A DNA stretch of 64,000 bases from Thioalbus denitrificans (GTDB taxonomy: Bacteria > Pseudomonadota > Gammaproteobacteria > DSM-26407): assembly GCF_003337735.1 (NCBI RefSeq), contig NZ_QPJY01000002.1:496001-560000 (forward strand), read 5' to 3'. The translations under genes were made by a program, and so were the position numbers. The notes beneath the pieces were generated by a model. The model saw only the letters and a list, made by a program, of their open reading frames with translations. It made no database searches and had not been told where the DNA came from. This document shows positions 1 to 14,567 of the stretch, one piece after another (within the stretch, counting starts at the first letter, position 1; each line of letters starts with the position of its first letter).

Positions 1-1
1 G

Positions 2-70
2 TTCCCGCTGGATGCCGAGGCGGAGCCGCTCTGGCAGTTCCTCTGGCCCCTGCTGGCGCCGGAGGGCTGA
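2..70 (+). CDS. 3' end of an unidentified protein gene
   Basis: An open frame runs in from the left edge and stops at TGA 68-70. The visible tail, ending LWQFLWPLLAPEG, is too short to assign to a family. It lies 59 bp before the cytochrome gene on the same strand. A real gene end is likely because the frame is open and has the window's G+C bias at third positions, but function cannot be given. Confidence 0.45.
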   Translation, partial: FPLDAEAEPLWQFLWPLLAPEG

Positions 71-94
71 GTATATTTTTTTGCCCCGAATGTG

Positions 95-108
95 AGCAAT
101 TAATTGCT
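95..108. promoter_or_regulatory. Perfect 14-bp palindrome upstream of the cytochrome gene
   Basis: AGCAATTAATTGCT is a perfect palindrome, preceded by TGTG and followed by TTT. It lies 21 bp before the cytochrome start and is AT-rich in a G+C-rich region. It could be an operator or a weak hairpin. It does not match FNR consensus, and only the left half resembles a CRP half-site. Confidence 0.3.
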
Positions 109-129
109 TTTAATCGCCTGGAGACCTGA

Positions 130-573
130 ATGGCCACACGACATCGCGCCTTTCGCACCGCTGCCCCGAGCCGGGTTGCGCTTGGTTTGCTGCTTCTGCT
201 CCAGGGCGTGCCGGCGCTCGCGGGACCTAACCTGCAGGCGGTGATGAAGACCCTCGGGGATGACCTCTGCCGGGCGAGCGGGGCTCTGGTGCAGGAGGAC
301 TACCCCACCCTGGCCGAGGCAGCACGGGCCATCGCCGATCATCCCCGTCCGGGCATGAGCGAGCGGCTGAAGATTCTCGCGGGCCTGGGGACGGATGCCG
401 AGCGCTTCAGGAGTGCCGACAGCGCCGTCCAAGATGCCGCAACGAGCCTCGCCGAGGCGGCGGAGAGAGAGGACGCACTGGCGGCGGCCGCGCACTACAG
501 CCTGCTCGTGGAACAGTGCGTCGACTGTCACGCCGGTTTCCGCCAACGCGTCCGCGCCCTCCTCCACCCGTGA
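130..573 (+). CDS. Cytochrome c'-like periplasmic c-type cytochrome
   Basis: This 147-residue protein has a signal peptide (hydrophobic core about residues 17-30, cleavage near ALAG). A single heme-attachment motif, CVDCH, lies near the C-terminus at about residues 130-134. A C-terminal CxxCH after a helical region of about 100 residues is the layout of cytochrome c'/c-556 four-helix-bundle proteins, which bind heme covalently in the periplasm and often handle NO or respiratory electrons. ATG 130 is chosen because GGAG lies about 8 bases upstream. It stands alone between a gene end and a porin gene. The family subtype (c' versus c-556) is uncertain. Confidence 0.75.
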   Translation: MATRHRAFRTAAPSRVALGLLLLLQGVPALAGPNLQAVMKTLGDDLCRASGALVQEDYPTLAEAARAIADHPRPGMSERLKILAGLGTDAERFRSADSAVQDAATSLAEAAEREDALAAAAHYSLLVEQCVDCHAGFRQRVRALLHP

Positions 574-603
574 TGCACCCATGGACACCGTGTCCCGTTT
601 GCG

Positions 604-630
604 CCAGGTGCACCGTTCCCGGGCGCCTGG
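604..630 (+). terminator. Hairpin downstream of the cytochrome gene
   Basis: CCAGGTGC pairs with GCGCCTGG (one G-U pair) about 30 bp after the cytochrome stop. There is no T-run behind it, so it is a weak or rho-assisted terminator at best. Confidence 0.35.
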
Positions 631-724
631 CTTGAAGGGCCCTCTCAACACGGAGGGCAGCGCAGTCCCGACTGCGTGATTGCAGCCATCAGCATCGAAA
701 CCGTTTTCCCAAGGAGTGAAACCG

Positions 725-1702
725 ATGAAAAAGTTGCTTGGATTTTCCGTAGCCGTGGCCCTGGCGGCGCCCTTGGCCGCCACCGCGAACCCCACTGTCT
801 ACGGGCGGGTGAATGTCAACCTCGTGCAGGAGGACATGGATACGGGGGACAGCGAATCCTGGGACGTGGAAAACAACAGTTCCCGAATCGGCGTGAAGGG
901 TTCCGAGGACCTCGGCAACAGTATGACTGCCATTTACCAACTTGAGTTCGGCGTCGATGCATCCGACTCGGGCAACCTGGACGGAAGACTGGCCTACGCG
1001 GGCATCTCCGGCCAGTTCGGCACGGTGGCCATGGGCCGGCAGTGGACCCCCTACTACGGCAGCGTGGCGAAGACCGACATCATGCAGATCGACACGATGG
1101 ACGACCACTACCTCGGCCTGGCGCGGGTCGGCAACGCCGTGGCCTATGTGACACCCACCTTCAACGGCCTGAGCGGCAAGGCGGCACTGGTCATCGACGG
1201 TGATGGTGCCGGCGAGGATACGGGCGAGGACTTTGCCGACTGGACCAATCTCTCCCTCGACTACGAGAACGGCCCCCTGTCCATCGGTGCCTCATGGCTG
1301 CGCGAGAACAGCGGCGAAGGCGACCAGTTCGGGCTTGCCGGCAAGTTCAATGTCGGCCGCTTCGCGGTGATTGGCCAGTACGAGAACGCCAGCGAGGAGA
1401 TTGCCGAGTACACCTTTTTCAGCGACACGGCGCTGACGCGCGACGACGTGACCTCCTGGGCCGTCGGCGGCGAGGCCTATTTCGGCAACAACACCATCAG
1501 GGCGGTCTACGGCGACGTGGATGCCGGTGCCGGTGGCGAATACAGCAACTGGAGCCTGGGCGCGGAACACATGTTCAGCAAGCGCACCCGTGTCTACGCG
1601 GAGTATGAGGACTCCGAGCACAACAAGGTGAGCTGTGGTGACTCCTGCGTCGAGTACGTCGAGGGTCAGCGTTTTGGTGTCGGCATCCGGCACGACTTTT
1701 AG
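725..1702 (+). CDS. Outer-membrane general porin (Gram-negative porin family)
   Basis: This 325-residue protein starts with a typical signal peptide (MKKLLGFSVAVALAAPLAATA) and continues with NPTVYGRVNVNL, the first strand of trimeric 16-stranded porins. The end, GVGIRHDF, carries the terminal aromatic residue needed for assembly by the Bam machinery. Acidic loops and short alternating strands fill the body, and a Cys pair near residue 300 (CGDSC) could form a loop disulfide. ATG 725 is preferred over upstream starts because AAGGAG lies at 711-716 and the signal peptide begins there. It allows diffusion of small hydrophilic solutes across the outer membrane. Substrate preference cannot be read. 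It appears monocistronic, with hairpins on both sides. Confidence 0.88.
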   Translation: MKKLLGFSVAVALAAPLAATANPTVYGRVNVNLVQEDMDTGDSESWDVENNSSRIGVKGSEDLGNSMTAIYQLEFGVDASDSGNLDGRLAYAGISGQFGTVAMGRQWTPYYGSVAKTDIMQIDTMDDHYLGLARVGNAVAYVTPTFNGLSGKAALVIDGDGAGEDTGEDFADWTNLSLDYENGPLSIGASWLRENSGEGDQFGLAGKFNVGRFAVIGQYENASEEIAEYTFFSDTALTRDDVTSWAVGGEAYFGNNTIRAVYGDVDAGAGGEYSNWSLGAEHMFSKRTRVYAEYEDSEHNKVSCGDSCVEYVEGQRFGVGIRHDF

Positions 1703-1728
1703 ACGTTCTTTCAGCGTTGTGTAACACC

Positions 1729-1750
1729 GTGCGCCCAGGGATGGGCGCAC
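1729..1750 (+). terminator. Stable hairpin after the porin gene
   Basis: GTGCGCCCA, loop GGGA, TGGGCGCAC: a perfect 9-bp stem 27 bp after the porin stop. No T-run follows, so termination may need Rho. It separates the porin from the efflux operon. Confidence 0.5.
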
Positions 1751-1773
1751 AACCCGGCACCAGTTTTCACTAT

Positions 1774-1791
1774 CCGTATTCCGGAGTACGG
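1774..1791. promoter_or_regulatory. 18-bp near-perfect palindrome covering the efflux-operon RBS
   Basis: CCGTATTCCGGAGTACGG is symmetrical except for one base pair and ends one base before ATG 1793. It includes the GGAG that serves as ribosome site. A repressor operator or a translational hairpin are both possible. Confidence 0.35.
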
Positions 1792-1792
1792 C

Positions 1793-2932
1793 ATGACAGA
1801 AACACATACCGCCCCATCAGCATCCCAGAAACGCCGTCAGCGCATGGCGTTGACCGGGCTGGCGCTCCTCCTGGCTCTTGTGACGGCCATGGCGGCGCTG
1901 CGCGTCGGGGAGCGGCTTGAGCCGGTCCCTGTCCTGCCGCGTGCGCCCCTCGCCGTGGATGTTGAACAGCTGCGGCAGGAACCCTTCGTCGTCAGCCATA
2001 AATACACCGGCAGCGTCGAGGCCCACCAGCGGGTGATCCTCTCCGCCCGGGTGACGGCAGTGGTGAAGGAAATTCCGTTCCGCGAGGGCCAGACCGTCGA
2101 AAAGGGCCAGCTGATTGCCCTGCTGGATGACCAGGAGATGACCGAGGATCTGGGTCGCCTCAAGGCCAGCGAGCAGCGTACCCGGTCGGAACTCGATTTC
2201 TGGGAAACCCAGCTCAGGCGCGACGAGAAGCTGTTCAAGGCCGGCACCATCCCCGAGCGCAACCGCGACGAATCACGCCGGATGGTTGCGACCCTGAAGG
2301 CCTCCCTGCGGGAGAACAGCGAGGAGCAGGCGATGGCCCGCACCCGGCGGGACTACACCATCCTCAACGCGCCCTTCGACGGGCGCATTCAGGCCATTTC
2401 CGTCCTGCCGGGCGAGCTGGCCATGCCGGGCAAATCGCTTGTGGAGCTGGTGGCATCCAGACCCCTCAAGGCGGTGGTGAGCGTGCCCCAGTCCGATCTC
2501 CCGGGACTCGGAAAGGGACTGCCGGTCCAGGTCCGCATCCCCGCCGTGAACGCGGCCCTCGCCGGACGGGTGGATCAGCTCTATCCAGCGCTCGAGCCCG
2601 GCACCCGGACGGCCACGCTCGAAACCTTTCTCCGCTCCGACACCGAAGGGCTCCTGCCCGGGATGCAGGCCGATGTGGAAGTGGTTCTCCAGTACGAAGA
2701 GTCGGCCCTGGTGCTCCCGTTCGAGGCGCTCCGGGAGCGGAACGGCGAATCCGGGGTCTACGTCGTCCGCGACCAGACGGCGGTTTGGCGGCCAGTCACC
2801 CCGGGGGCGCGTACGGGACGTCGGATTCGGATCATCGATGGGCTGGAAAATGGCGAGTGGGTCGTGACGACCCCGGACCCCCGGCTGGCTGACGGCCAAC
2901 CGCTCTGGCTCGCCGGAAAGGAGGGGCTCTGA
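1793..2932 (+). CDS. RND efflux periplasmic adaptor (membrane fusion protein)
   Basis: The 379-residue protein has an N-terminal membrane anchor (about residues 18-38) and then the standard adaptor order. The first half of the lipoyl domain (ARVTAVVKEIPFREGQTVEKG) is followed by a coiled-coil hairpin (about residues 115-185), the second lipoyl half (NAPFDGRIQAISVLPGEL), a beta-barrel and a membrane-proximal domain. No lipobox is seen, so the anchor is a transmembrane helix. It bridges the RND pump and an outer-membrane channel. The stop overlaps the pump start (TGATG), so the two are translationally coupled. It is the first gene of an eleven-gene operon. Family is certain; substrate is unknown. 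Confidence 0.92.
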   Translation: MTETHTAPSASQKRRQRMALTGLALLLALVTAMAALRVGERLEPVPVLPRAPLAVDVEQLRQEPFVVSHKYTGSVEAHQRVILSARVTAVVKEIPFREGQTVEKGQLIALLDDQEMTEDLGRLKASEQRTRSELDFWETQLRRDEKLFKAGTIPERNRDESRRMVATLKASLRENSEEQAMARTRRDYTILNAPFDGRIQAISVLPGELAMPGKSLVELVASRPLKAVVSVPQSDLPGLGKGLPVQVRIPAVNAALAGRVDQLYPALEPGTRTATLETFLRSDTEGLLPGMQADVEVVLQYEESALVLPFEALRERNGESGVYVVRDQTAVWRPVTPGARTGRRIRIIDGLENGEWVVTTPDPRLADGQPLWLAGKEGL

Positions 2933-5900
2933 TGAGCTGGCCCCGCTTTTCCCTCACCTATCGCTATACCGTCTTCGCCACCCTCATAGCGGTCGTGGTG
3001 TTCGGCGTGGTGGCCCGTTTCAGCCTGCCGGTTCAGCTCTTCCCCGACACCGATCCGCCGGTGGTGACGGTCATCACCGACTACCCCGGCGTGGCCGCCA
3101 CCGATGTGGGGAAGAACCTGAGCAAGATCCTGGAAGAGGAGTTCGCCGGCATCGATGGCGTCGCCCGCGTCACCTCCACCAGCCAGACCGGCCTGTCGGT
3201 GGTGAAGGTGGAGTTTCACTATGATCGCCGGGTGGGCGAGGCCGCGGTGGATGTCCAGAATGCCATCAGCCGTGTCCGCAGCAACCTGCCCCCGCGCATC
3301 GGTGAGCCCCAGGTCCTGCAGTTCTCCTCCTCCGACAAGCCGATTCTCACCCTGGCCATCAGTTCCGGCAGCCTGTCCCTCGAGGCAGTCCGCGAACTGG
3401 CGGACAACCCCGTCAGCGACCGGTTGCAGCTGGTGCCGGGAGTGGCCGCGGTGGACGTGTTCGGTGGCCACAAGTATGAGTTGCATGTGGCCGTGCAACG
3501 GGACCGCCTGCGGGCCTACGACCTGGAGCTGGGGCAGGTGGCCGAGGCGCTCGCGGGGTGGAACCTCACCGCCTCGGGGGGGCGCATCCAGAGCGGCAGC
3601 CGGGAGGCGGTGGTCCGCTTCGACATGCCGCTGCGTGACACCGGCGACGCCGGGCAACTCATCATCGCCCACCGGCAGGGTCGTGAGATCCGCCTGGCCG
3701 ACGTGGCGGACGTCTCCCTGACCTCTCACGAGGCCCGCAGCGCCTACCATTACAACGGCGAGCCGGCCATCGCCGTGCAAATCCTGAAACGGGACGAGGC
3801 CAACACGGTGAGGGTGGCGGAGCAGGTGCGCGACGCCGTCGCCTCACTGGAGCGGGAGATGCCCCAGCTCCGGTTCACCCTGGCGGACGACGATTCCGCC
3901 TTTACCGAACTGGTCATCGACAACATGACCACGTCGGTGTTCACCGCCATCATACTGGTCATTCTCCTCATCTTTCTGTTCCTGGCCCATCTGCGCCAGG
4001 CCGCCATCATCGCCATCTCCATCCCGGTCTCCTTCCTGATGACCTTCGTCCTCATGTGGATGGCGAACATCGACCTGAACATGGTGACCATGTCCGCCAT
4101 CATCCTGGCCATCGGCCTGCTGGTGGATGACAGCATCGTGGTACTGGAGAACGTTCACCGTCATCTCGCCATGCCGGGCAAGACCCCGTTGCGGGCGGCG
4201 CTTGAGGGCACCGAGGAGATCTTCCTGGCGGACCTCTCCGGCACGGTCACCACCCTGGCGGTGCTAATCCCGCTGGTCTTCCTGGGCGGCTTCGTCGGCA
4301 AGCTGTTCGCCCCCCTGGCCTGGACGCTCGCCTTCGCCCTCGCCTCCTCCTTCGTGGTCTCGGTCACCCTCATCCCGGTGCTCACGGCCCTGTGGCTCCA
4401 TCCCGAGGACAATGGCGAAACCCGCCTGGCCCGTTGGGTCGCGCCCTTCAACAACTTCATGGATGGGCTGAAGGACGGCTACCTGGCCCTGCTGGAGGTG
4501 GCCCTGCGCCGGCCTTGGCGCACCCTTGCCGTGACCCTGCTGCTGCTGGTCGCCAGCGCCCGACTCATGGCCTTCGTCGGCAGCGAGATGCTGCCCAAGT
4601 TCGATGCCGGCAACTTCCGGGTGCAGATCGACACCATCCCCGGCATGCCCCTGGAGCAGACCCTGGAGGCGGTCTCGGCGGTGGAGCAGCTGCTGCTGGC
4701 GGAGCCGGAGGTCATCGGCGTCAGCACCCAGACGGGGTACGAGCCGGGCGGCCACTACCTCGGCAACCGGGGCGCCATGGGTGTGAACCAGGCGGAAATC
4801 ACCGTCAACCTGACGCCGCGAACCGAGCGGACCGACTCCATCTGGACCATCATGGAGCGCACACGGGCCGGGATCGAGCGGGTTCCCGGCATCACCCTGG
4901 CCGTGCTGAAGGAGCAGGGAGGCACCGCCCGCTCCACCACCACGGCGCCCATCGATGTGCGCCTCAGCGGCCCCGACCCGGTGGTCCTGGACCAACTGGG
5001 CAGCGCCGTCCTGGATCGCATCCGCAACGTACCGGGCGTCAGGGATCCCTACAAGAACTGGGCCCTCGACACGCCCGAGGTGAACGTGGTCATCGATCGG
5101 GAACGGGCCGCCGAGCTCGGCCTCAACGGCGAGGCCATCGCCGCACGCGCCTACGAGGCCATGGAGGGCAGCGTGGTAACCCCCTACCGCCAGGACCGGC
5201 ACCGCGACCTGGATGTCTTCCTGCGCTATGCGGACGCGGACCGGGATCATCTCGGCGACCTGGGCGACCTCCACCTGCAGGTGCCCGGCGGCACCCTACC
5301 CCTGCGGGACGTGGCGCAACTGGAAGAGCGCCTGGGCCCCCGTATCGTCACCCGGGAGGATTTCCAGCAGACCCTGGATGTTCTCGGTTATCAGTATGGC
5401 CGCCCCCTGTCGGAGACCATCGCCGATGTGCAGACGGCGCTGGCCGACCTGGAGCTGCCGGCGGACTACAGCCTGGCTATCACCGGTGAACAGAGTGACT
5501 TCCAGGATGCCAGAAAGCGGATGCTGGCGGCACTGGCCGCCGGCCTGCTCGCCGTCTACCTGGTGCTGGTGGCGCAGTTCCGCTCCTTCAAGCATCCCTT
5601 CACCATCATGGCTGCCGTGCCTCTGCAGTTCATCGGCGCGGCCGCCGCCCTGCTGGTGGCCGGCAAATACCTATCCATGCCCGCCCTGCTCGGCATCATC
5701 CTGCTGGTGGGGACGGTGGTGAACAACAGCATCGTGCTCATCGACTACGTCCTGCAGCGCCGCCGGGCGGGCATGGCGATCCGGGCAGCCATCATCGAGT
5801 CGGTTCACGTGCGCTACCGGCCCATCATGATGACCGCGCTGTCGGACGTGGCAGGGATGCTGCCCCTGGCCATGGAGCTGGCCGTGGGCGCCGAACGCTT

Positions 5901-6042
5901 CTCGCCCATCGCCACGGTGGTCATCGGGGGCATCCTCGCCGCCACCCTGCTGACGCTGGTGATCATTCCGGTCCTCATCTTCCTGGTGGAACGGCGTGCA
6001 CCCGATCCCCGCACCGCCGACCCCCTGCTGGAAACCCTCTGA
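2932..6042 (+). CDS. RND efflux pump, inner-membrane permease
   Basis: The 1036-residue protein is the usual size for the AcrB/HAE1 family, with twelve transmembrane helices and two large periplasmic loops. The TM4 signature GLLVDDSIVVLENVHRH carries the paired aspartates of the proton relay, and the C-terminal half repeats the fold (LLGIILLVGTVVNNSIVLID). It exports substrate through a TolC-type channel, driven by proton influx. It overlaps the adaptor gene by one base and is followed 21 bp later by the GGDEF-like gene. The nearest subgroups are the shorter hydrophobe/metal-tolerant RND pumps with one adaptor. Substrate is not readable from sequence. Confidence 0.93.
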   Translation: MSWPRFSLTYRYTVFATLIAVVVFGVVARFSLPVQLFPDTDPPVVTVITDYPGVAATDVGKNLSKILEEEFAGIDGVARVTSTSQTGLSVVKVEFHYDRRVGEAAVDVQNAISRVRSNLPPRIGEPQVLQFSSSDKPILTLAISSGSLSLEAVRELADNPVSDRLQLVPGVAAVDVFGGHKYELHVAVQRDRLRAYDLELGQVAEALAGWNLTASGGRIQSGSREAVVRFDMPLRDTGDAGQLIIAHRQGREIRLADVADVSLTSHEARSAYHYNGEPAIAVQILKRDEANTVRVAEQVRDAVASLEREMPQLRFTLADDDSAFTELVIDNMTTSVFTAIILVILLIFLFLAHLRQAAIIAISIPVSFLMTFVLMWMANIDLNMVTMSAIILAIGLLVDDSIVVLENVHRHLAMPGKTPLRAALEGTEEIFLADLSGTVTTLAVLIPLVFLGGFVGKLFAPLAWTLAFALASSFVVSVTLIPVLTALWLHPEDNGETRLARWVAPFNNFMDGLKDGYLALLEVALRRPWRTLAVTLLLLVASARLMAFVGSEMLPKFDAGNFRVQIDTIPGMPLEQTLEAVSAVEQLLLAEPEVIGVSTQTGYEPGGHYLGNRGAMGVNQAEITVNLTPRTERTDSIWTIMERTRAGIERVPGITLAVLKEQGGTARSTTTAPIDVRLSGPDPVVLDQLGSAVLDRIRNVPGVRDPYKNWALDTPEVNVVIDRERAAELGLNGEAIAARAYEAMEGSVVTPYRQDRHRDLDVFLRYADADRDHLGDLGDLHLQVPGGTLPLRDVAQLEERLGPRIVTREDFQQTLDVLGYQYGRPLSETIADVQTALADLELPADYSLAITGEQSDFQDARKRMLAALAAGLLAVYLVLVAQFRSFKHPFTIMAAVPLQFIGAAAALLVAGKYLSMPALLGIILLVGTVVNNSIVLIDYVLQRRRAGMAIRAAIIESVHVRYRPIMMTALSDVAGMLPLAMELAVGAERFSPIATVVIGGILAATLLTLVIIPVLIFLVERRAPDPRTADPLLETL

Positions 6043-6063
6043 CAGCCAATGGAGATCCCGGCC

Positions 6064-7185
6064 ATGACACACATCCATCCGGAAGAGCGGATTTTCTGCC
6101 CCAGGCACGACTGCGACGGATTCCGGGAGACAATCTCCGGAGAGGTCAGAGTGGCGATTCTCGGCGGAGGTGAAACGGCGCAGGAGCTCGCCGAACAACT
6201 GTGCGTCGTCCCCGGGGTCCGTATCACCGGCCTCTGGTCGGAGCGGCCGTCCGGGCCGCTGCGGTGCTGGGCGGCGGTGCGGGGGCTGGTGGTTCATGAA
6301 AAGCTGGGCACTCTGGCGGAAGAGACGCAGAACGACCTGATTCTCGACACCTGCGAGGGGGAGACCATTGCGGCACGGGTGCAGGCGCTCGGCAGCGAAT
6401 CCTCACCGATCCTGCCCGCCTCCCATGCCAGGTTCCTGGCGACCCTGCTGGCCGACATCAGCCGGCGCATGCAGGTTTCCTCGAGCCGCTATTGCGCCGC
6501 CTATGCCACCCGCCACTGTTTCGGCCACCTGGGGCAGGCCCTGCTGCGGCGCCTGGCCGATCTGGCGGGAGAGGGTTCGGCGTTTCTTCCCATCCTGCCG
6601 CTCGTGGACCCGGACGCGGGACTCTATCACCGGGACATTCTCGTCCACTACCTGGATCAGAGGCTCGCGGCCCTGCGCCACTATGGAGAGCCGGTCATGC
6701 TCCTGCTGGCCGGCATCGCCGGCAGCAAATCCGCACCGACCCAATGGACAGAGACCACTGAGGCCTACCCGCCGGAGAACCTCCGTTCGGCCTCCCGGCA
6801 CCTCTTCCGCCAGATTCAGGGCCTGAGCGAAAACGTGGAACTCGTGGGCTACCTGGGCGGCGGGCGCATCGCCGCGGTGCTGACCCGGCTGACGGGCGAC
6901 GAGGCCGTGCTGCTGGCCGAGGGCTTCCTCATTGACGCCAAAGACGAGGCCACGGACCCCGGGCTTCGGGACGAGGACGGCTCCCGGGCCCCCTGCGCCG
7001 CCCTCGCCGTGCTGGAATCACCCGATTGCATCCCCCCCGGGATGGACGCGCAGGTGCTGCTCGAGCGCATCGAGGAGGAACTCGCCACGTCCATGATGAA
7101 TCAGGACGACCTGGTGGTGTTCGCTCCCGGCTCCGATTCACCGCTGGCCTGCCCGAACCCCCACACCGAGACGACAAGGAGCTGA
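6064..7185 (+). CDS. Rossmann-type domain plus degenerate GGDEF-like domain protein
   Basis: The protein is 373 residues from ATG 6064, chosen because GGAG lies 9 bases upstream; ATG 6049 is an alternative. Residues 28-120 look like a nucleotide-binding Rossmann unit (VRVAILGGGETAQELAEQL, later DLILDTCEGE). From about residue 186 the sequence follows the GGDEF pattern: LYHRDILVHYLDQRLAALRH, then a hydrophobic strand, then GYLGGGRIAAVL where active cyclases have GGDEF. The catalytic Asp-Glu pair is absent, so cyclase activity is not expected; it may be a sensory or nucleotide-binding relic. No membrane segment is seen. It lies between the RND pump and the outer-membrane channel gene. The GGDEF relationship is my inference from pattern. 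Confidence 0.55.
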   Translation: MTHIHPEERIFCPRHDCDGFRETISGEVRVAILGGGETAQELAEQLCVVPGVRITGLWSERPSGPLRCWAAVRGLVVHEKLGTLAEETQNDLILDTCEGETIAARVQALGSESSPILPASHARFLATLLADISRRMQVSSSRYCAAYATRHCFGHLGQALLRRLADLAGEGSAFLPILPLVDPDAGLYHRDILVHYLDQRLAALRHYGEPVMLLLAGIAGSKSAPTQWTETTEAYPPENLRSASRHLFRQIQGLSENVELVGYLGGGRIAAVLTRLTGDEAVLLAEGFLIDAKDEATDPGLRDEDGSRAPCAALAVLESPDCIPPGMDAQVLLERIEEELATSMMNQDDLVVFAPGSDSPLACPNPHTETTRS

Positions 7186-7186
7186 C

Positions 7187-8533
7187 GTGGCACGCAAAGT
7201 CCGATTCGCCGCCCTGCTGGTGCTGGGCCTGGCACTCCCCCTCCCGGGTTCGGCGGCCACGACGGTCGCGCTGACCCTCGACACCGGGCGTCTGACCCTG
7301 GACCAGGCCATTCAGTGGGCACTGGTGGAGAACCCCAATCTCTCCGGCCTGCACCGGGACCTGCAGGCCGAGGCACTGGAGCGGGAGGTGGCCCGCGGCA
7401 AGCGGATGCCCGAGTTGACCCTCGAGGGGGACTACACCCACCACTCCGAGCCCACGCTGACCCACTCCATCCATGACCCGGGAAGCTTTCCACCCCTGGA
7501 CGAGGATACGGCCAGCCTGGGCGTGGGCCTCACCCTGCCCCTCTATGCGGGGGGAAGGCTGGTGGCGGGCGAACGCCGTGCGGAACACGGCCTGCAGGCG
7601 AAGTCCCAAGCGCTGGCGGGCTCCCGTCAGCAACTCATCTTCGATGTGGTGACCGCGTATACCGCGGCACTGCAACACAGCGAGGTGGTGACCGCGCTGG
7701 AACACCGGATACGTGGACTGGAGGCAGAGGATGCCGACCTGGCACTGAAAATCAAGCAGGGCACCGCGGCGCCGCTGGAGCGGATGCGGATCCAGTCCCA
7801 GATTTCCGAAGCGCGCTATGACCTCGCGACGGAACGCCAGAGTGCCGGGGACGCCCGCGATCAACTGGCGCGACTGCTGGGCAGCACCGATCCGCTTCCG
7901 CCGCTGGCCGATATCCGCGGCCTGGAATTGCCCCTGCCGGAGGACCGGGATGCCGCCCTGGCCCAGGCCCTGGCAGGCCATCCCGATTTGCAACGCTCCC
8001 GGGCCGAGCAGCTCACCGCGCTCGATGATCTCCACATCGCCCGGGGGGAGCGGCTGCCCGAGGTCCGGCTCCAGGCACGGCTGAACGGAAACTCCGGCGG
8101 TGATCTGGAACTGGAGGACGAGTGGCAGATGGGGGTGAACATCTCGGTGCCGCTGTTCGATGGCGCCGTGCGCAGCACCCGGGTCCGCCAGGCGGCCCTG
8201 CGCCGGGAGCGCGCCCAGCTCGGCATCCAGTCCAGCCGGGACGCGGTCACCCTCGGGGTGCGTGAATCCTGGGGTGGGCTCACCACCCGCCGGGCCCAGC
8301 TGGAGGCGGCACAAGCCGGCGAGCGGGAAGCTGGTGAGGCGTTGCGGGTGGAAACCTTCAAGTTCCGCAACGGCGCCAGTACGGTCACCGACCTACTGGC
8401 GGCCGAAGCCGCCCTGTGGAGCGCCACGGCCAGCCGCATCGAGGCCGAGTACAGCATCGTAGTGGAGCAGGCGCGACTGCTCCTGGCCGTCGGCCATCTT
8501 GAATCGGACCGGTTCGGAGGAACCAGACCATGA
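7187..8533 (+). CDS. TolC-family outer-membrane efflux channel
   Basis: This 448-residue protein starts with GTG at 7187, one base after the previous stop and behind AAGGAG. A signal peptide (LLVLGLALPLPGSAA) is followed by two repeats of the outer-membrane efflux family, with long amphipathic helices (EALEREVARGKRMPELTLEG; ERMRIQSQISEARYDLATER). It is expected to be a trimer forming the trans-periplasmic channel. Being the only such channel gene in the operon, it probably serves both the RND pump before it and the ABC exporter after it. Its stop overlaps the next start (ATGATGA). Confidence 0.9.
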   Translation: MARKVRFAALLVLGLALPLPGSAATTVALTLDTGRLTLDQAIQWALVENPNLSGLHRDLQAEALEREVARGKRMPELTLEGDYTHHSEPTLTHSIHDPGSFPPLDEDTASLGVGLTLPLYAGGRLVAGERRAEHGLQAKSQALAGSRQQLIFDVVTAYTAALQHSEVVTALEHRIRGLEAEDADLALKIKQGTAAPLERMRIQSQISEARYDLATERQSAGDARDQLARLLGSTDPLPPLADIRGLELPLPEDRDAALAQALAGHPDLQRSRAEQLTALDDLHIARGERLPEVRLQARLNGNSGGDLELEDEWQMGVNISVPLFDGAVRSTRVRQAALRRERAQLGIQSSRDAVTLGVRESWGGLTTRRAQLEAAQAGEREAGEALRVETFKFRNGASTVTDLLAAEAALWSATASRIEAEYSIVVEQARLLLAVGHLESDRFGGTRP

Positions 8534-9549
8534 TGAAAGTGATTCCCCTGCTGTTATCCGCCCTGGCCCTCATCCTCAATCCCGGCGCCGCGGACGCCTG
8601 GGAGTGGCCCTGGTCAGCGAAGGAGGATCCGGACCGGATTCTCGCCTCCGGCACGGTCGAAGTCACCGAGGTGCTGATCTCCTTTCCCGTGGCCGGCACC
8701 CTGGACCAGCGACTCATGGACGAAGGGGATGCGGTCCGTCGGGGCTACCCGCTGGCCTCGCTGGACACCCGTGAGGCCGTGCTCTCCACCATCCAGGCCC
8801 AGGCCTCCCTCTCCGCGGCTTCAGCACGGTTGAAGGAACTGCAGGCCGGTTACCGGCGTGAGGAGATCGCCCAGGCGGAGGCGGCAGTGGCCGAGGCACG
8901 GGCCGACCTGCAATATCGCCGAGCCGAGGCCCGCCGCGCCGAAGCCCTGTTCGAGGCGGACGCCATCAGCCGGCAGAAGCTCGAACTGGAACAGACCGCA
9001 GCCGACACCGCGGCCCAGCGCTACCAGAGCGCCCGTGAAAAGCTGGCCATGCTCAAAGCCGGCTACCGGCCCGAGCAGATCGCCGCGGCCCAGGCGGCAA
9101 TGGAGGAGGCGACGGCCGCGGCACTGGCCGCGCGGGTACGCCTCTCCGATCTCGAAGCGGTCAGCCCCATTGACGGCGTCGTGCTGCGCACCCATGCCGA
9201 GCCGGGCGAAAACCTCGCCGCCGGACGGCCCGTCCTCACTGTGGGGGACCTGGCCAGTCCCTGGGTGCGGGTCTACATCCCGGAGACGCACATCGGCCGC
9301 ATCCGGCTCGGGAGCGATGCGGAAGTGACCGTGGACTCCCACCCCGACCGGCGCTTCAGCGGCCGGGTCACCTACGTGGCCTCGGAGGCCGAGTTCACCC
9401 CGAAGAACGTGCAGACCCAGGAGGAGCGGGTGAAGCTGGTCTTCGCCGTGGATGTCCGGGTGGAGAACCCCGAGGGGATTCTCAAGCCCGGCATGCCCGC
9501 GGATGTGGTCATCCATTCCCCCGCGAATCCGGTGACGGTGGTCAACTGA
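8530..9549 (+). CDS. HlyD-family adaptor for the ABC exporter (YbhG-like)
   Basis: The 339-residue protein has a signal peptide or anchor at residues 3-23 and an early lipoyl half (GTVEVTEVLISFPVAGTLDQ). A long coiled coil rich in Ala, Glu and Arg follows (about residues 85-195), then the second lipoyl half (AVSPIDGVVLRTHAEPGENL) and a barrel domain. This layout, beside two ABC ATPases and two ABC-2 permeases, matches the YbhG adaptor of the YbhFSR exporter. It links the inner-membrane ABC complex to the TolC channel. ATG 8530 overlaps the previous stop; ATG 8533 is an equally possible start. GGAGG lies at 8516-8520. Confidence 0.88.
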   Translation: MMKVIPLLLSALALILNPGAADAWEWPWSAKEDPDRILASGTVEVTEVLISFPVAGTLDQRLMDEGDAVRRGYPLASLDTREAVLSTIQAQASLSAASARLKELQAGYRREEIAQAEAAVAEARADLQYRRAEARRAEALFEADAISRQKLELEQTAADTAAQRYQSAREKLAMLKAGYRPEQIAAAQAAMEEATAAALAARVRLSDLEAVSPIDGVVLRTHAEPGENLAAGRPVLTVGDLASPWVRVYIPETHIGRIRLGSDAEVTVDSHPDRRFSGRVTYVASEAEFTPKNVQTQEERVKLVFAVDVRVENPEGILKPGMPADVVIHSPANPVTVVN

Positions 9550-9550
9550 C

Positions 9551-10396
9551 ATGACCAGCACCGCCGCTGCCGATCGACGCCTGCTGGCAGGACTGGCCCG
9601 CCAGCACCGGGCCGCGCTGGGGGTCTACCTGGCGGTCAGCCTGGTGGTCATCGGCGCCGGGGAGCTGGCGGCCCTGCGCTTCGGGTTTCCGGAGCGCTTC
9701 GGCCTCGCCCCGGTCCTGCTCCGGCTGGCCCTCTATATCGGCGGCAGCACCCTGCTCTGGTCGTTGCTGCTGGGCTGGAGCCGCGAACTGGTGGCCCGGC
9801 TCCTGGGCGAGCGCCGGCGCCACTACGAGGCGATCCTTACGGCCTTCAACCAGGCCCTCGGCCTCAAGGATGCCTACTCCGCGGGCCATGGCCGCCGGGT
9901 GGCGCGCTACGTGGTCATTCTTGCCGAGGCGCTTCAGCGCCCCGCGGAGGAGGTGGAGACCATCCGCCAGGCCGCGCTGCTGCACGACCTCGGCAAGCTC
10001 GGCATACCCGACGGCATCCTGACCAAGCCGGGCGAGCTGGAGGGCCCCGAATGGGCCGCCGTCCTGCGCCACCCCGACCAGGGGGCCGACATTCTCGCCG
10101 CCAGCCCGCAACTGCGGCACCTGGCCCCCATCGTCCGCGCCCACCATGAACGGCTCGACGGGAGCGGCTACCCCCTCGGCCTGGTGGCCGGGGCCATCCC
10201 CCTGCCGGCGCGCATCATTGCCGTGGCCGATGTCTTCGACGCCCTCACCAGCGACCGCGCCTACCGCATGGCCATCACCCCGGCCGAGGCGGCGGTGGTC
10301 ATCCGGGCCGCGGCGGGGAGTCATTTCGACGCGGAAGTGGTGGCCGTGGCGACCCGCGCCGACATCCTCGAACAATTCGCACGGAGCCGGTCATGA
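9551..10396 (+). CDS. Membrane-anchored HD-GYP domain protein (putative c-di-GMP phosphodiesterase)
   Basis: Two predicted membrane helices (about residues 21-42 and 58-75) precede a complete HD-GYP domain. Visible motifs are H113 in AGHGRR, HD at 145-146 in LLHDLGKLGIPDG, HHE at 198-200 and DGSGYP at 203-208, then PARIIAVADVFDALTSDRAY. All metal and substrate motifs of active HD-GYP phosphodiesterases are present. These enzymes hydrolyse cyclic di-GMP, or related dinucleotides, to GMP. It begins one base after the HlyD stop and overlaps the next ATPase start by four bases, so it is a built-in member of the exporter operon. Its role there is unknown; controlling export through nucleotide level or contact is a guess. 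Confidence 0.88.
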   Translation: MTSTAAADRRLLAGLARQHRAALGVYLAVSLVVIGAGELAALRFGFPERFGLAPVLLRLALYIGGSTLLWSLLLGWSRELVARLLGERRRHYEAILTAFNQALGLKDAYSAGHGRRVARYVVILAEALQRPAEEVETIRQAALLHDLGKLGIPDGILTKPGELEGPEWAAVLRHPDQGADILAASPQLRHLAPIVRAHHERLDGSGYPLGLVAGAIPLPARIIAVADVFDALTSDRAYRMAITPAEAAVVIRAAAGSHFDAEVVAVATRADILEQFARSRS

Positions 10397-11358
10397 ATTC
10401 CGCTGTATCAACCGCCATTCGCTGCGAGGGGCTGGGCCGGACCTTCGACGCCCTGTGGGCGGTGCGCGGACTCGATCTCTCGGTCGCACGGGGCGAGGTA
10501 TTCGGCCTCGTGGGGCCCGACGGCGCCGGCAAGACCACCACCCTGCGCATGCTGACCGGCATCCTCGCCCTCTCGGAGGGCAGCGCCCGGGTGAGCGGCC
10601 AGCCGCTGCCCGGCGGCGAGGAGGCCATCAAGAACCGCATCGGCTATATGTCCCAGCGCTTCGGCCTCTATCCCGACCTGACCGTGGAGGAGAATCTGCG
10701 CTTCTACGCCGATCTCTACCGCGTGCCCCGCCGGACCCGGCTGGCGATGGAGGAGCGGCTGCTGGGATTCAGCAACCTCACGCCGTTCCGCCGGCGCCTG
10801 GCGCGTAACCTCTCCGGGGGGATGAAGCAGAAGCTGGGTCTGGCCTGCGCCCTCATCCACAAGCCCGAGGTGCTGTTCCTGGACGAGCCCACCAACGGGG
10901 TCGACCCGGTCTCGCGGCGGGATTTCTGGCGCATTCTCTACAGCATGGTCAAGGAGGGGGTCACCATCTTCGTCTCCACCGCCTACCTGGACGAGGCGGA
11001 GCGCTGCAGCCGGGTGGGGCTCATGCACCAGGGTCGCCTGATCCGCTGCGACACCCCGAAGCGCCTCCGGGAGACGCTGAGCGGCCAGTTGCTGGAGCTG
11101 GAGACGGATGCTCCGCGGCAGGCCCGCGAGTTGCTGGTGGAGCGGCTGGGGTCGCAGCGGGTGAGCCTGTTCGGCGGCCACCTGCACCTGTTCGCCGATG
11201 ACCCCGGGACACTGGCCACCGCCCGCTCGGCGCTGAGCCGGGCGGGCATCGCCCTGCGCGCGGCACGACCCATCCCCGCCTCCCTGGAGGACGTGTTCAT
11301 CCGCGAGCTGGCCCTGGCGGACCGTGACGAGGCCGATGGCGGAGCCGGCCATGAGTGA
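10393..11358 (+). CDS. ABC transporter ATPase, first of pair (YbhF N-half-like)
   Basis: This 321-residue protein contains one complete ATP-binding cassette: Walker A GPDGAGKTT at residues 41-49, Q-loop YMSQRFGLYPDL, signature LSGGMKQKLG and Walker B VLFLDEPTNGVD. An ABC-2-type extension follows. In the E. coli YbhFSR exporter two such cassettes are fused in YbhF; here they are separate genes overlapping by 8 bases. It powers the two ABC-2 permeases downstream. The start overlaps the HD-GYP stop (ATGA). Confidence 0.92.
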   Translation: MNSAVSTAIRCEGLGRTFDALWAVRGLDLSVARGEVFGLVGPDGAGKTTTLRMLTGILALSEGSARVSGQPLPGGEEAIKNRIGYMSQRFGLYPDLTVEENLRFYADLYRVPRRTRLAMEERLLGFSNLTPFRRRLARNLSGGMKQKLGLACALIHKPEVLFLDEPTNGVDPVSRRDFWRILYSMVKEGVTIFVSTAYLDEAERCSRVGLMHQGRLIRCDTPKRLRETLSGQLLELETDAPRQARELLVERLGSQRVSLFGGHLHLFADDPGTLATARSALSRAGIALRAARPIPASLEDVFIRELALADRDEADGGAGHE

Positions 11359-12301
11359 TGAACTGGCGGTGACGGTGCGCGATCTCACCCGGGTGTTCGG
11401 CGACTTCGTGGCCGTCGACCACATCTCCCTGGAGGTGCCGCGCGGCAGCATCTTCGGCTTCCTGGGGCCCAACGGCTCGGGCAAGTCCACCACCATCCGC
11501 ATGCTCTGCGGCCTGCTGCTGCCCTCCGGCGGCAGCGGCCGGGTACTCGGCTTCGACGTCCTGCGGGAGCCGGAGTCCATCAAGCGCCGGGTGGGCTACA
11601 TGTCGCAGAAGTTCTCCCTCTACGATGATCTGCGGGTGGAGGAGAACATCGACTTCTTCGCCGGCCTCTACAATGTCCCGCGGGCGCAGCGCGCCGCGCG
11701 CAAGGCCTGGGTGCTGGAGATGGCGGGGCTCGGGGACAAGCGCCGCGCCCTCACCCGCGATCTGGCCGCCGGCTGGAAGCAGCGCCTGGCCCTGGGCTGC
11801 GCCGTGCTCCACGAACCGCCCCTGCTGTTCCTGGACGAGCCCACCTCGGGGGTGGATCCCCTCTCGCGCCGGCGGTTCTGGGATCTCATCGCCCGCATGG
11901 CCCATGCCGGCACCACGGTCTTCGTCACCACCCACTACATGGAGGAGGCGGAGTACTGCGACGCCCTGGCGCTCATCTACCGCGGCCGGCTCATCGCTGA
12001 GGGCGCCCCGGAACGCCTGAAGCGCGAGGCGGTGACGCGCACGGTCCTGGAGGTGCGGGTGGACCAGCCCTACGCCGCCCTCGAGGCCCTGGAAGCCCTG
12101 CCCCAGGCCGCCGAGGCCGCCCTGTTCGGCGACACCCTGCACGTGAGCGTGGATGACGCGGATCTGGCCACCGCCGCCATCCGCCGCCAGCTCACGCTGG
12201 AGAACATCCACCTGGCCTCCATCGAGCCCATCGTCCCGTCCATGGAAGACGCCTTCGTGTCCCTGATCGAGGCCGACGATGCCCTCAGGAGCGCCCCATG
12301 A
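11351..12301 (+). CDS. ABC transporter ATPase, second of pair (YbhF C-half-like)
   Basis: The protein has 316 residues from ATG 11351, preferred because GGAG sits 6 bases upstream and the cassette begins at DELAVTVRDL. Walker A is GPNGSGKST and Walker B is LLFLDEPTSGVD. The signature is unusual: LAAGWKQRLA in place of LSGGQ. YbhF-like proteins are known to carry a GWKQ-type signature in one half, so one ATP site of the heterodimer is probably non-canonical. It pairs with the preceding ATPase. The stop overlaps the next start by four bases. Confidence 0.9.
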   Translation: MSDELAVTVRDLTRVFGDFVAVDHISLEVPRGSIFGFLGPNGSGKSTTIRMLCGLLLPSGGSGRVLGFDVLREPESIKRRVGYMSQKFSLYDDLRVEENIDFFAGLYNVPRAQRAARKAWVLEMAGLGDKRRALTRDLAAGWKQRLALGCAVLHEPPLLFLDEPTSGVDPLSRRRFWDLIARMAHAGTTVFVTTHYMEEAEYCDALALIYRGRLIAEGAPERLKREAVTRTVLEVRVDQPYAALEALEALPQAAEAALFGDTLHVSVDDADLATAAIRRQLTLENIHLASIEPIVPSMEDAFVSLIEADDALRSAP

Positions 12302-13425
12302 ATGTCACCCGGACCCGCTTCAGCGGCCGGCGCTACCTGGCGCTGGTGCGCAAGGAGTCACTGCACATCCGCCGCGACCCGCGCAGCCTCGCCATGGCCT
12401 TCCTCATGCCGGTCCTGCTGCTGGTGCTGTTCGGCTACGCCATCACCCTGGACGTGAACAACCTGGATCTGGCCGTCTACGACCAGGATCGCAGTGCCGC
12501 CAGCCGCGACTACATCCGCGCGTTCCCCGCCTCGAACTACTTCACCGTGGTCACCGATGCCGCGACCTACGCCGAGGCGGAGGCTGCGGTCGTCTCGGGA
12601 CGGGCGCACCTGGCACTGGTGATCCCGACCGATTTTTCCGAACGCCTGGACCAGCGGCGCACGGCGGCGGTGCAGGTGCTGGTGGACGGCAGCGACGCCA
12701 ACACCGCCACCATCGCCATCGACTACGCCGAGGGGGTGACGGAGGGATTTTCCGCCGATCTCAGGGGGCAGGTGGAACTCGCCGTGGAGAACCGCCTGCG
12801 GGTCTGGTACAACCCCGAGCTGAAGAGCCGCTGGTTCATCATCCCGGGTCTCATTGCCGTCATCATGACGGTCATCACCGCGCTGCTCACCTCGCTCACC
12901 GTCGCCCGGGAGTGGGAATCCGGCACCATGGAGCAGCTCATCGCCACCCCCATCCAGCCCCTGGAGCTGCTGCTGGGAAAGATGACCCCCTACTTTCTCA
13001 TCGGGGTCTTCGACGTGCTGCTCTCCATCGCCATGGCCGTGTGGGTCTTCGATGTCCCGCTGCGCGGCAGCCTCGCCTTCCTCCTCGGCTCGGGGGCCCT
13101 GTTCATGCTCGGCGGCCTGGGACTCGGCATCCTCATCTCCACCGCGGCCCGCTCCCAGCTGGTGGCCAGCCAGGTGGCCATGGTGGCCACCTTCATTCCG
13201 GCCTTCCTGCTGTCGGGGTTCCTCTACTCCATCGACAACATGCCGCGCTTCCTCCAGGTCATCACCCACGCGGTGCAGGCCCGCTACTACGTGACCATTC
13301 TCAAGGCGGTATTCCTCAAGGCCAGCCCCCCCGCCCTGCTGGTGAACGAGCTGGCCTTCCTGTCGCTGTTCGCCCTGGTGGTCCTGGGCGTGGCGCTGCG
13401 CAAGTTCAAGAAGAGACTCGACTGA
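12298..13425 (+). CDS. ABC-2 type permease, first of pair (YbhS/YbhR-like)
   Basis: This 375-residue protein has one N-terminal membrane helix (SLAMAFLMPVLLLVLFGYAI), a periplasmic domain of about 150 residues, and five C-terminal helices starting near residue 175. The ABC-2 signature WESGTMEQLIATPIQPLELL links helices. It forms the translocation path together with the next permease. The family exports drugs, lipids or polymers. It overlaps the ATPase gene by four bases and precedes its paralogue by 13 bp. Confidence 0.9.
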   Translation: MNVTRTRFSGRRYLALVRKESLHIRRDPRSLAMAFLMPVLLLVLFGYAITLDVNNLDLAVYDQDRSAASRDYIRAFPASNYFTVVTDAATYAEAEAAVVSGRAHLALVIPTDFSERLDQRRTAAVQVLVDGSDANTATIAIDYAEGVTEGFSADLRGQVELAVENRLRVWYNPELKSRWFIIPGLIAVIMTVITALLTSLTVAREWESGTMEQLIATPIQPLELLLGKMTPYFLIGVFDVLLSIAMAVWVFDVPLRGSLAFLLGSGALFMLGGLGLGILISTAARSQLVASQVAMVATFIPAFLLSGFLYSIDNMPRFLQVITHAVQARYYVTILKAVFLKASPPALLVNELAFLSLFALVVLGVALRKFKKRLD

Positions 13426-13438
13426 GGCGCGACACGTC

Positions 13439-14542
13439 ATGTGGGAACGAATCTACCGGATGCTGATCAAGGAGTTCATCCAGGTGCTGCGGGATCCGCG
13501 CATGCGCTTCCTGGTGTTCGTCACGCCCGTGGTCCAGCTCATCATCTTCGGCTACGCCGTGACCACCGACGTGGAGCACATCAAGACCGTGGTGCTGGAC
13601 CAGGACCGCAGCAGTCACAGCCGTGCCCTGGAGCAGCGTTTCACCAGCTCCCGCTATTTCGATGTGCTGGCCCGGGTGGAGTCGCCGACACGCCTGCAGG
13701 AGTGGCTCGACCGGGGCGAGGCGATCATGGCGCTGCACATCGAGCGGGGATTCGGCGAGGACCTGGAGCGTGGGCGCCCGACCGCCGTCCAGACCCTCGT
13801 CGACGGTACCGACTCCAACACCGGCACCGTCGCCATGGCCTACGCCCAGCGCATCATCGCCGACTACTCCATGAGCCAGGGCGGAGAGGCCGTCGCCCCG
13901 CCCATCGATCTGCGCAGCCGCGCCTGGTACAACCCCGACCTCAAGAGCCGCTACTACAACGTGCCCGGGGTCATCGGTGTGCTGCTGCTGCTCACCTCGC
14001 TGCTGCTCACCTCCATGGCGGTGGTGCGGGAACGGGAGATCGGCACCATGGAGCAGCTCATGGTCACCCCCATCCGGCCACTGGAGCTGATCCTGGGCAA
14101 GACGCTGCCCTTCGTGGTGATCTCCTACGTGGACGTGGTGCTGGTGACCGTGATCGGGGTCTACTGGTTCGACGTGCCCATCCGTGGGAGCCTGCCGTTG
14201 CTGTTCCTCGGCGCCGGCCTCTACCTCATGTCCACCATCGGGGTGGGACTGTTCATCTCCACCATCTCCCAGACCCAGCAGCAGGCACTCATGTCCGCCT
14301 TTTTCTTCTACCTGCCGGCGGTGCTCCTCTCCGGGTTCATGTTCCCCATCGAGAACATGCCCGGGCCGGCCCAGTGGATCACCTACCTCAACCCGCTGCG
14401 CTACTTCCTGGTGATCATCCGTGACCTGTTCCTCAAGGGCGTGGGTCTGGAGGTGCTGTGGCCGGAGTACCTGGCCCAGGCCCTGCTCGGATTGCTGCTG
14501 CTCGGCTTCAGCGCGGCGCGCTTCCGCAAGCGGATGGACTGA
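13439..14542 (+). CDS. ABC-2 type permease, second of pair (YbhR/YbhS-like)
   Basis: This 367-residue paralogue of the preceding permease has the same layout: an N-terminal helix (FLVFVTPVVQLIIFGYAVTT), a periplasmic domain, then five helices with REREIGTMEQLMVTPIRPLE. Two different half-permeases with two different ATPases suggest a heterodimeric exporter. The stop is followed 25 bp later by the patatin lipoprotein gene. Confidence 0.9.
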   Translation: MWERIYRMLIKEFIQVLRDPRMRFLVFVTPVVQLIIFGYAVTTDVEHIKTVVLDQDRSSHSRALEQRFTSSRYFDVLARVESPTRLQEWLDRGEAIMALHIERGFGEDLERGRPTAVQTLVDGTDSNTGTVAMAYAQRIIADYSMSQGGEAVAPPIDLRSRAWYNPDLKSRYYNVPGVIGVLLLLTSLLLTSMAVVREREIGTMEQLMVTPIRPLELILGKTLPFVVISYVDVVLVTVIGVYWFDVPIRGSLPLLFLGAGLYLMSTIGVGLFISTISQTQQQALMSAFFFYLPAVLLSGFMFPIENMPGPAQWITYLNPLRYFLVIIRDLFLKGVGLEVLWPEYLAQALLGLLLLGFSAARFRKRMD

Positions 14543-14567
14543 ACGGACCCAGGACAGGAAGCCCGTC

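Follow-up and report, generated by a model that had tools for sequence, protein, structure and literature searches.

A pseudo-diguanylate cyclase with a Rossmann-type input half in an efflux operon of Thioalbus denitrificans: a possible non-catalytic regulatory adaptor

Active diguanylate cyclases carry a metal-binding Asp pair, the GG(D/E)EF signature, a guanine-site Asn and a C-terminal Lys/Arg, and GGDEF domains that are catalytically dead are already known. Among the described systems, RpfG offers a precedent for a GGDEF protein working beside an HD-GYP phosphodiesterase. The part of PMC3749722 used here reports that the docking of two GGDEF proteins to the HD-GYP of RpfG is independent of cyclase activity, names a DxD docking motif in these partners, and gives the HD-GYP consensus as HDxGK and HHExxDGxGYP; WspR also binds RpfG according to PMC9758175. 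A second precedent comes from operons for mercury resistance, in which urf2/mrp encodes an EAL phosphodiesterase (PMC6629876). The locus presented here is like urf2/mrp in that a gene of c-di-GMP type is embedded in an operon for export of, or resistance to, toxic substances; urf2/mrp has an active EAL enzyme, whereas the present operon has a dead GGDEF domain and a separate HD-GYP protein.

In the present study, we analysed the window, that is, the whole stretch of 64,000 nucleotides, in which the gene of the 373-residue protein P0001 lies at 6064..7185 on the forward strand, as do its parts and the genes of the run described next. The gene has an orthologue in the same genus that is 82% identical. 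Its ATG at 6064 is preceded, at a distance of 9 nt, by a ribosome-binding-like GGAG (6051..6054) found by direct reading, and an alternative longer start is possible at 6049. An earlier note on this DNA had claimed a degenerate GGDEF-like domain fused to a Rossmann unit inside an efflux operon; the open reading frame at 6064-7185 and its GGGETA and GGGRI motifs are present in the sequence, and the efflux setting was confirmed by an RND permease upstream and a TolC-family protein downstream. The same-strand run extends to 14542 and consists of a porin, an RND periplasmic adaptor (1793..2932; TIGR01730), the RND permease (2932..6042; ACR_tran, E 1.9e-249), P0001, the TolC-family outer membrane protein (7187..8533; OEP, E 2.2e-49), an HlyD-type adaptor belonging to the ABC part of the operon (8530..9549; NF002939, E 1.4e-74, under the cut-off of the model), an HD-GYP phosphodiesterase (9551..10396; HD_5, E 1.8e-36), and two ABC ATPase and two ABC-2 type permease genes (10393..14542), which were named by eye and form a block conserved in the sampled genomes G335 and G333. 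The tripartite RND efflux set of adaptor, permease and TolC-type genes is complete, and P0001 sits tightly within it, the RND stop lying 21 nt ahead of its gene and the GTG start of the TolC-type gene 1 nt past its stop. Neither terminator-like nor sigma-70-like sites were found in 1-14700, an absence that gives a weak indication that the run may form a single transcript.

Several further features of the locus were observed. Over 1793-14542 of the window, a tripartite RND pump and an ABC-2 type exporter are joined around one TolC-type gene. At the head of the gene run, 130-573 encodes a small exported-looking protein, possibly cytochrome c'-like, with CVDCH near its C terminus. A TetR-type regulator gene (by eye) stands just upstream of the operon, at 7474-8067 of locus L101 with its end near window position 67, and in G333 (L090) the orthologous block has similar genes at its flanks. 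Directly 3' of the ABC permease genes, the frame 14415-15986 encodes a patatin-like phospholipase (by eye, FSGGGTRAAAFSYG).

By ordinary searches P0001 is silent. It gave no matches in Pfam, NCBIfam and PHROG at E up to 1 and none among PDB chains by sequence at E up to 10, no relatives were found in plasmid and viral collections, and PF00990 does not recognise it: at E up to 0.1 the model has 32 GGDEF matches in the genome of the window, and P0001 is not one of them. Matches at E up to 0.01 were obtained in 15 of the 369 sampled genomes of the class. Two of these are of the same genus and two others, G012 and G164, hold proteins that match P0001 residues 25-311 and 26-286, respectively, at 19% identity. 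Both are intact Rossmann-GGDEF proteins, with PF00990 at E 5.2e-43 and 1.1e-42 and with PF01408 (Gfo/Idh/MocA Rossmann) just over the cut-off at E 5.8e-5 and 6.2e-6. The pairwise comparison of P0001 with the G012 protein gave E 9e-11 over residues 21-324, and hhalign of the two-species P0001 profile against a profile of four intact proteins put the probability at 96.8 and E at 2.2e-10, the aligned columns 26-290 taking in both halves and the linker. The four-protein profile scored P0001 at 31.6 bits (residues 27-288) and its orthologue at 30.7, compared with 2.5 for the best of 1000 P0001 shuffles; the C-terminal half by itself reached 18.9 bits against a best shuffle of 4.6, the N-terminal half 7.0 bits (E 0.35) against 3.2, and a reversed P0001 copy was absent from the top-scoring rows listed in this test. 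Chance resemblance to Rossmann-GGDEF proteins was ruled out by the shuffles and the profile comparison.

When the C-terminal half was searched separately, its best matches were L005 and L014, which are not Rossmann-GGDEF proteins, followed by L003, in a set enriched for loci retrieved using P0001, so that these rankings are not an unbiased sample. Because of these matches, the Rossmann-GGDEF layout rests on the whole-length score and not on the C-terminal half. Of the loci classed in the other 11 matching genomes, L005, L006, L009 and L014 carry GGDEF proteins or frames resembling them, nothing of this kind is seen in L007 and L013, and L010 and L016 are fragments of Rossmann genes in a single genome; beyond the genus and G012 and G164, we judged the matching genomes to hold ordinary GGDEF proteins or chance matches. 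The fragment at about 1468-1830 of L010 (G341) comes from a Rossmann gene of this family that is truncated and has a broken reading frame; an lgt-like gene lies downstream of it. The comparisons show P0001, as far as alignment can tell, to be collinearly homologous to a Rossmann-GGDEF subfamily through Rossmann domain, linker and GGDEF domain. The GGGETA and GGGRI motifs by themselves are weak evidence, whereas the aligned whole-length homology is not, and the idea of a fusion in the earlier note can be refined, since by alignment other genomes have proteins of the same Rossmann-GGDEF architecture in intact form.

The intact proteins of this architecture (L003, L004, L030 and L043, together with L095-L100, which come from Mariprofundus and a Zetaproteobacterium) have, like P0001, a short Gfo/Idh/MocA-like Rossmann domain followed by a GGDEF domain, with no other domain found. 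The helical linker of P0001 (residues about 119-175; 6418..6588), which is of low confidence in the model, has in the joint alignment the length of that in L003. These proteins keep GGEEF, DxDxFKxxND and RxxD, whereas P0001 does not. A first scan of contigs for relatives found none and a second gave six loci, five from Mariprofundus and one from a Zetaproteobacteria bacterium. The N-terminal profile matches 240 of 398 genomes, with up to five matches per genome in family f207, and many of the weak matches are probably plain NAD(P) enzymes; f207 was taken as Mariprofundaceae because the L058 frame is the Mariprofundus erugo frame (L097). Among the 29 loci L030-L058 that were analysed, 25 have a GGDEF domain, three have a histidine kinase and L039 ends at a contig edge. 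In its N-terminal position, and often in f207, the Rossmann module leads into a GGDEF, a GAF-GGDEF, a GAF-histidine kinase or a PAS-histidine kinase part. As an observation in its own right, the Gfo/Idh/MocA-like Rossmann domain is a recurrent N-terminal input domain (L003, L004, L019, L022, L026, L030-L058 and L095-L100). In the part of the open-licence literature surveyed, we found no description of proteins with such an input on a GGDEF domain or kinase; in its excerpted text, PMC8250860 mentions GGDEF proteins of Zetaproteobacteria and not Rossmann domains.

The GGDEF-fold domain of P0001, which lacks the catalytic residues, spans residues about 176-356 (6589..7131) by alignments, profile and model. 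The AlphaFold2 model, for which the alignment rows were six intact Rossmann-GGDEF proteins (five Mariprofundus and one Zetaproteobacteria bacterium), has a mean pLDDT of 59.7 and a pTM of 0.49. By blocks, residues 31-80 average 70-84, residues 81-90 average 65, and 191-220, 241-290 and 311-350 average 69-91; values under 50 occur in residues 1-25, 97-186, 222-236, 299-306 and 357-373. The order of strands and helices in the modelled C-terminal half is that of a GGDEF domain. Model residues 178-354 fit 5euh with Z 17.5, 156 residues superposing at 2.6 A. The 50 entries listed in the fold comparison, with Z 14.9-17.5, are all proteins that we take, in part from their titles, to have GGDEF domains. 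A single-sequence run (pLDDT 41.7) gave a similar order of elements wherever elements were given, which proves little. The C-terminal half is accordingly modelled with a GGDEF fold, a prediction that intact-GGDEF alignment rows can pull. This relation of folds is what the earlier note had proposed to look for by structure prediction, and its degenerate GGDEF-like half is upheld by Z 17.5, by the 18.9 bits of the C-half profile and by the change of GGDEF to GGGRI. The predicted fold is like that of the PF00990 GGDEF domains of WspR, PleD and GcbC; P0001 differs from them in that no catalytic or inhibitory-site residue is left and the Pfam model misses it.

Since living Rossmann-GGDEF relatives share the layout of P0001, its losses and retentions can be read residue by residue. 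On alignment with the intact relatives, Gly217-Ile-Ala219 (6712..6720) replaces the metal-binding Asp-x-Asp, Pro225 replaces the guanine-site Asn, GGGRI at residues 265-269 (6856..6870) replaces GG(D/E)EF, and the C-terminal Lys/Arg motif is gone at 343-349. Counting back from GGGRI, ENVE (256-259) replaces the RxxD of the I-site in both species, at a place where the alignment has a 7-residue gap. The loop 217-226 itself differs between the species, being GIAGSKSAPT in one and GVAGTEPDPA in the other. GG(D/E)EF, RxxD and DxDx(F/L)KxxND are kept in all 36 GGDEF-bearing relatives examined, a count in which two genes appear twice, each having been obtained from two sources (L056/L095 and L058/L097); these were drawn from 41 relatives, of which five were without a GGDEF domain in the frame read, namely four kinases and L039, cut by its contig edge. 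The only dead copies among those examined are the two of P0001's genus. In the genome of the window (G000), plain GG(D/E)EF is missing in seven of the 32 PF00990 stretches (L104, L127 and L131-L135), so that a changed signature alone is not unusual there; among the GGDEF domains of this genome, joint loss of every site was assessed for P0001 only. Further non-canonical GGDEF domains may exist in G000. The alignments show P0001 to have lost its GTP, metal and c-di-GMP sites and, if the known chemistry holds, it should not be a cyclase; the earlier note had expected as much, and the loss of the metal, guanine, signature and RxxD sites agrees with it. We rejected an active cyclase, the known catalytic residues of the GGDEF half being gone. 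P0001 is a pseudo-diguanylate cyclase with an input of Rossmann type, known to date from two species of a single genus.

The HD-GYP phosphodiesterase of the operon, encoded by the third gene downstream of P0001, agrees with the HD-GYP consensus in its motifs HDLGK and HHERLDGSGYP, and its hydrophobic N-terminal segments, judged by eye, suggest that it is membrane-anchored. In G333 an HD-GYP orthologue, 45% identical over residues 5-272, adjoins the orthologous RND gene. As this pump is without a P0001 gene, the link between HD-GYP and pump is independent of P0001 and the two are not obligate partners; judging from these gene orders, the link may be older than the P0001 gene. Four of the six Mariprofundus and Zetaproteobacterium loci have an HD-GYP frame some 3 kb ahead of the Rossmann-GGDEF gene and in its orientation (L095 5371-7008, L096 5147-6793, L097 4719-6440 and L098 4715-6391), the remaining two loci holding 4.9 and 15.1 kb. 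Such proximity hints weakly at an association, HD-GYP genes being common and the species related. The partners of RpfG offer a likeness, since their GGDEF domain acts by contact and without need of cyclase activity; in the same part of PMC3749722 they are active cyclases in vitro, whereas the activity of P0001 is expected from its residues to be nil and its input is the Rossmann unit. The DxD motif of those partners (PMC3749722, in part) may perhaps be the Asp-x-Asp that is Gly-Ile-Ala in P0001. Another stretch of DxD type, DPD, is found in P0001 at 182-184.

Our best explanation, to which we give an even chance on the evidence of sequence, is that P0001 is a pseudo-diguanylate cyclase kept as a non-catalytic regulatory adaptor of its efflux operon. 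The N-terminal Rossmann domain would receive an input, conceivably an NADP(H)-type dinucleotide or a derived ligand, and the resulting shape change would reach the GGDEF-fold half by way of the helical linker; this half would serve as a protein-docking module. The most economical partner would be another protein that the operon encodes, with the HD-GYP phosphodiesterase (9551-10396) as first candidate, and docking would adjust pump expression and local c-di-GMP breakdown together. Against this adaptor reading we counted, from the sequence comparisons, the degraded Rossmann site, the possible loss of the DxD docking motif, the HD-GYP gene standing by the G333 pump where P0001 is absent, the highest dN/dS of five genes, the record of the gene from only two species, and the several GGDEF domains of the genome that lack the signature (7 of 32).

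Distribution and selection bear on whether the gene is kept for a function at all. The gene of P0001 occurs in both genomes of its order in the collection. In the two species it has identical pump genes on either side, and in each the reading frame runs through 373 codons without a break. In the two-species comparison its dN/dS is 0.43 (bootstrap 0.29-0.62), the highest of five genes, the neighbours giving 0.08 for the porin (332 aligned codons), 0.11 for the RND permease, 0.17 for the adaptor and 0.21 for the TolC-type protein (362 aligned codons); P0001 is therefore under purifying constraint, less than these four neighbours. A search for RND orthologues in 369 genomes, in which scoring was confined to the top two candidates of each genome and orthologues may thus be missed, found them at 60-69% identity in at least four other genomes (G335, G333, G065 and G020), the next best having 37% or less. 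The order from RND to permeases is kept in G335, where the RND gene is followed by TolC-type, HlyD-type, small membrane protein and ABC genes, and in G333 the RND gene is followed by the HD-GYP gene with the TolC-to-ABC block nearby on the opposite strand; no P0001 homologue was found beside the pump in either. A small membrane protein follows the RND gene in G065, with no P0001 homologue and with the contig ending soon after RND, and the 19 kb around RND in G020 gave no homologue of P0001 or of the downstream operon genes among the matches listed. None of the four genomes has a whole-protein match to P0001, a search that a strongly diverged copy could escape. Close homologues of the operon's RND, adaptor, TolC-type and ABC genes were likewise absent from ten loci of intact relatives (L102, L103, L146, L147 and L095-L100; 4.9-20 kb), where the only RND matches, in L102 and L103, were distant and to SecD/SecF-like frames. 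Because the gene is absent in G335 and G333 and the loci of its relatives are without the pump genes, P0001 looks, from these comparisons, like an addition to a pre-existing pump locus in one lineage.

These data also speak to a different explanation, in which P0001 is a passenger in decay, a former cyclase inserted in the operon, now inactive and kept in frame mainly by translational coupling of its neighbours. The dN/dS at the top of five genes, the lack of the gene at the orthologous pump loci of G335 and G333 and the divergence of loop 217-226 between the two species are what such decay would leave, whereas the lack of any stop or indel over 373 codons in either species, a bootstrap interval wholly below 1 and a ribosome-binding-like site of its own argue against it, and we consider it rather unlikely.

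The N-terminal half of P0001 (residues about 27-118; 6142..6417) is a Rossmann-type domain by alignments, by the model and by the family profile against PDB. This profile, of seven rows including P0001 and its orthologue, found acetaldehyde dehydrogenase as best match (E 8.5e-9), then DapB (3.6e-4), Gfo/Idh/MocA enzymes and Rex (0.014); the Rossmann unit proposed in the earlier note thereby gains support from NAD(P) Rossmann domains of known structure. The dinucleotide loop is degraded, GGGETA at residues 34-39 (6163..6180) standing where many relatives have GAGRGG. Compared with the intact relatives, the third Gly of the loop is changed to Ala, giving GxGxxA, and the Asp after strand 2 is changed to Ser59, followed by Glu and Arg61; Ser59-x-Arg61 is common to both species. 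A GxGxxA loop with Ser59-x-Arg61 after strand 2 is a pattern of NADP binders. An ordinary oxidoreductase was ruled out, as the Rossmann half has no oxidoreductase catalytic domain after it. Sensing of a cofactor by P0001, which the earlier note had suggested for a nucleotide or redox cofactor, would be plausible from its sequence, with the Rossmann site itself degraded and the GTP and c-di-GMP sites of the GGDEF half lost. In the linker, Cys144, His151, Cys152 and His155 (6493-6528 of the window) are conserved in both species. These residues could be a candidate metal site, in a region of low model confidence and in two close species, which prove little.

If the Rossmann half were the whole of the function, P0001 would be a pure NAD(P)(H) redox sensor, binding NADP(H) through this domain while the dead GGDEF half only dimerises, with the upstream TetR-type repressor or the pump as output. 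The grouping of its relatives with NAD(P) Rossmann domains, the NADP-binder pattern shared by both species and the TetR-type gene just upstream of the operon are in keeping with such a sensor; the loop and the acidic position differ from those of the intact relatives and P0001 itself is matched by no Pfam Rossmann model, and we regard this explanation as decidedly unlikely. That the GGDEF-fold half binds a nucleotide (GTP, c-di-GMP or other) in a remodelled pocket and reports to the pump is very improbable, for although degenerate GGDEF domains can be receptors and the fold is retained in the model, the metal Asp pair, guanine-site Asn, GG(D/E)EF and RxxD are all replaced and the former guanine-site loop differs between the two species.

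Returning to the adaptor reading, a bolder form of it has the pseudo-cyclase gated by redox state or NADP(H) and binding, at the membrane, the HD-GYP protein that its operon encodes, so that the state of the cofactor would set both local c-di-GMP breakdown and RND/ABC export. We hold this form, conceived from the gene content and motifs, to be quite doubtful; if it is true, metabolism, second messenger and efflux would be wired directly within one operon. Should P0001 sense a cofactor, the metabolic state would be tied to an efflux pump. P0001 also points to a signalling class in which a Gfo/Idh/MocA-like Rossmann input is fused to GGDEF, GAF-GGDEF or histidine kinase.
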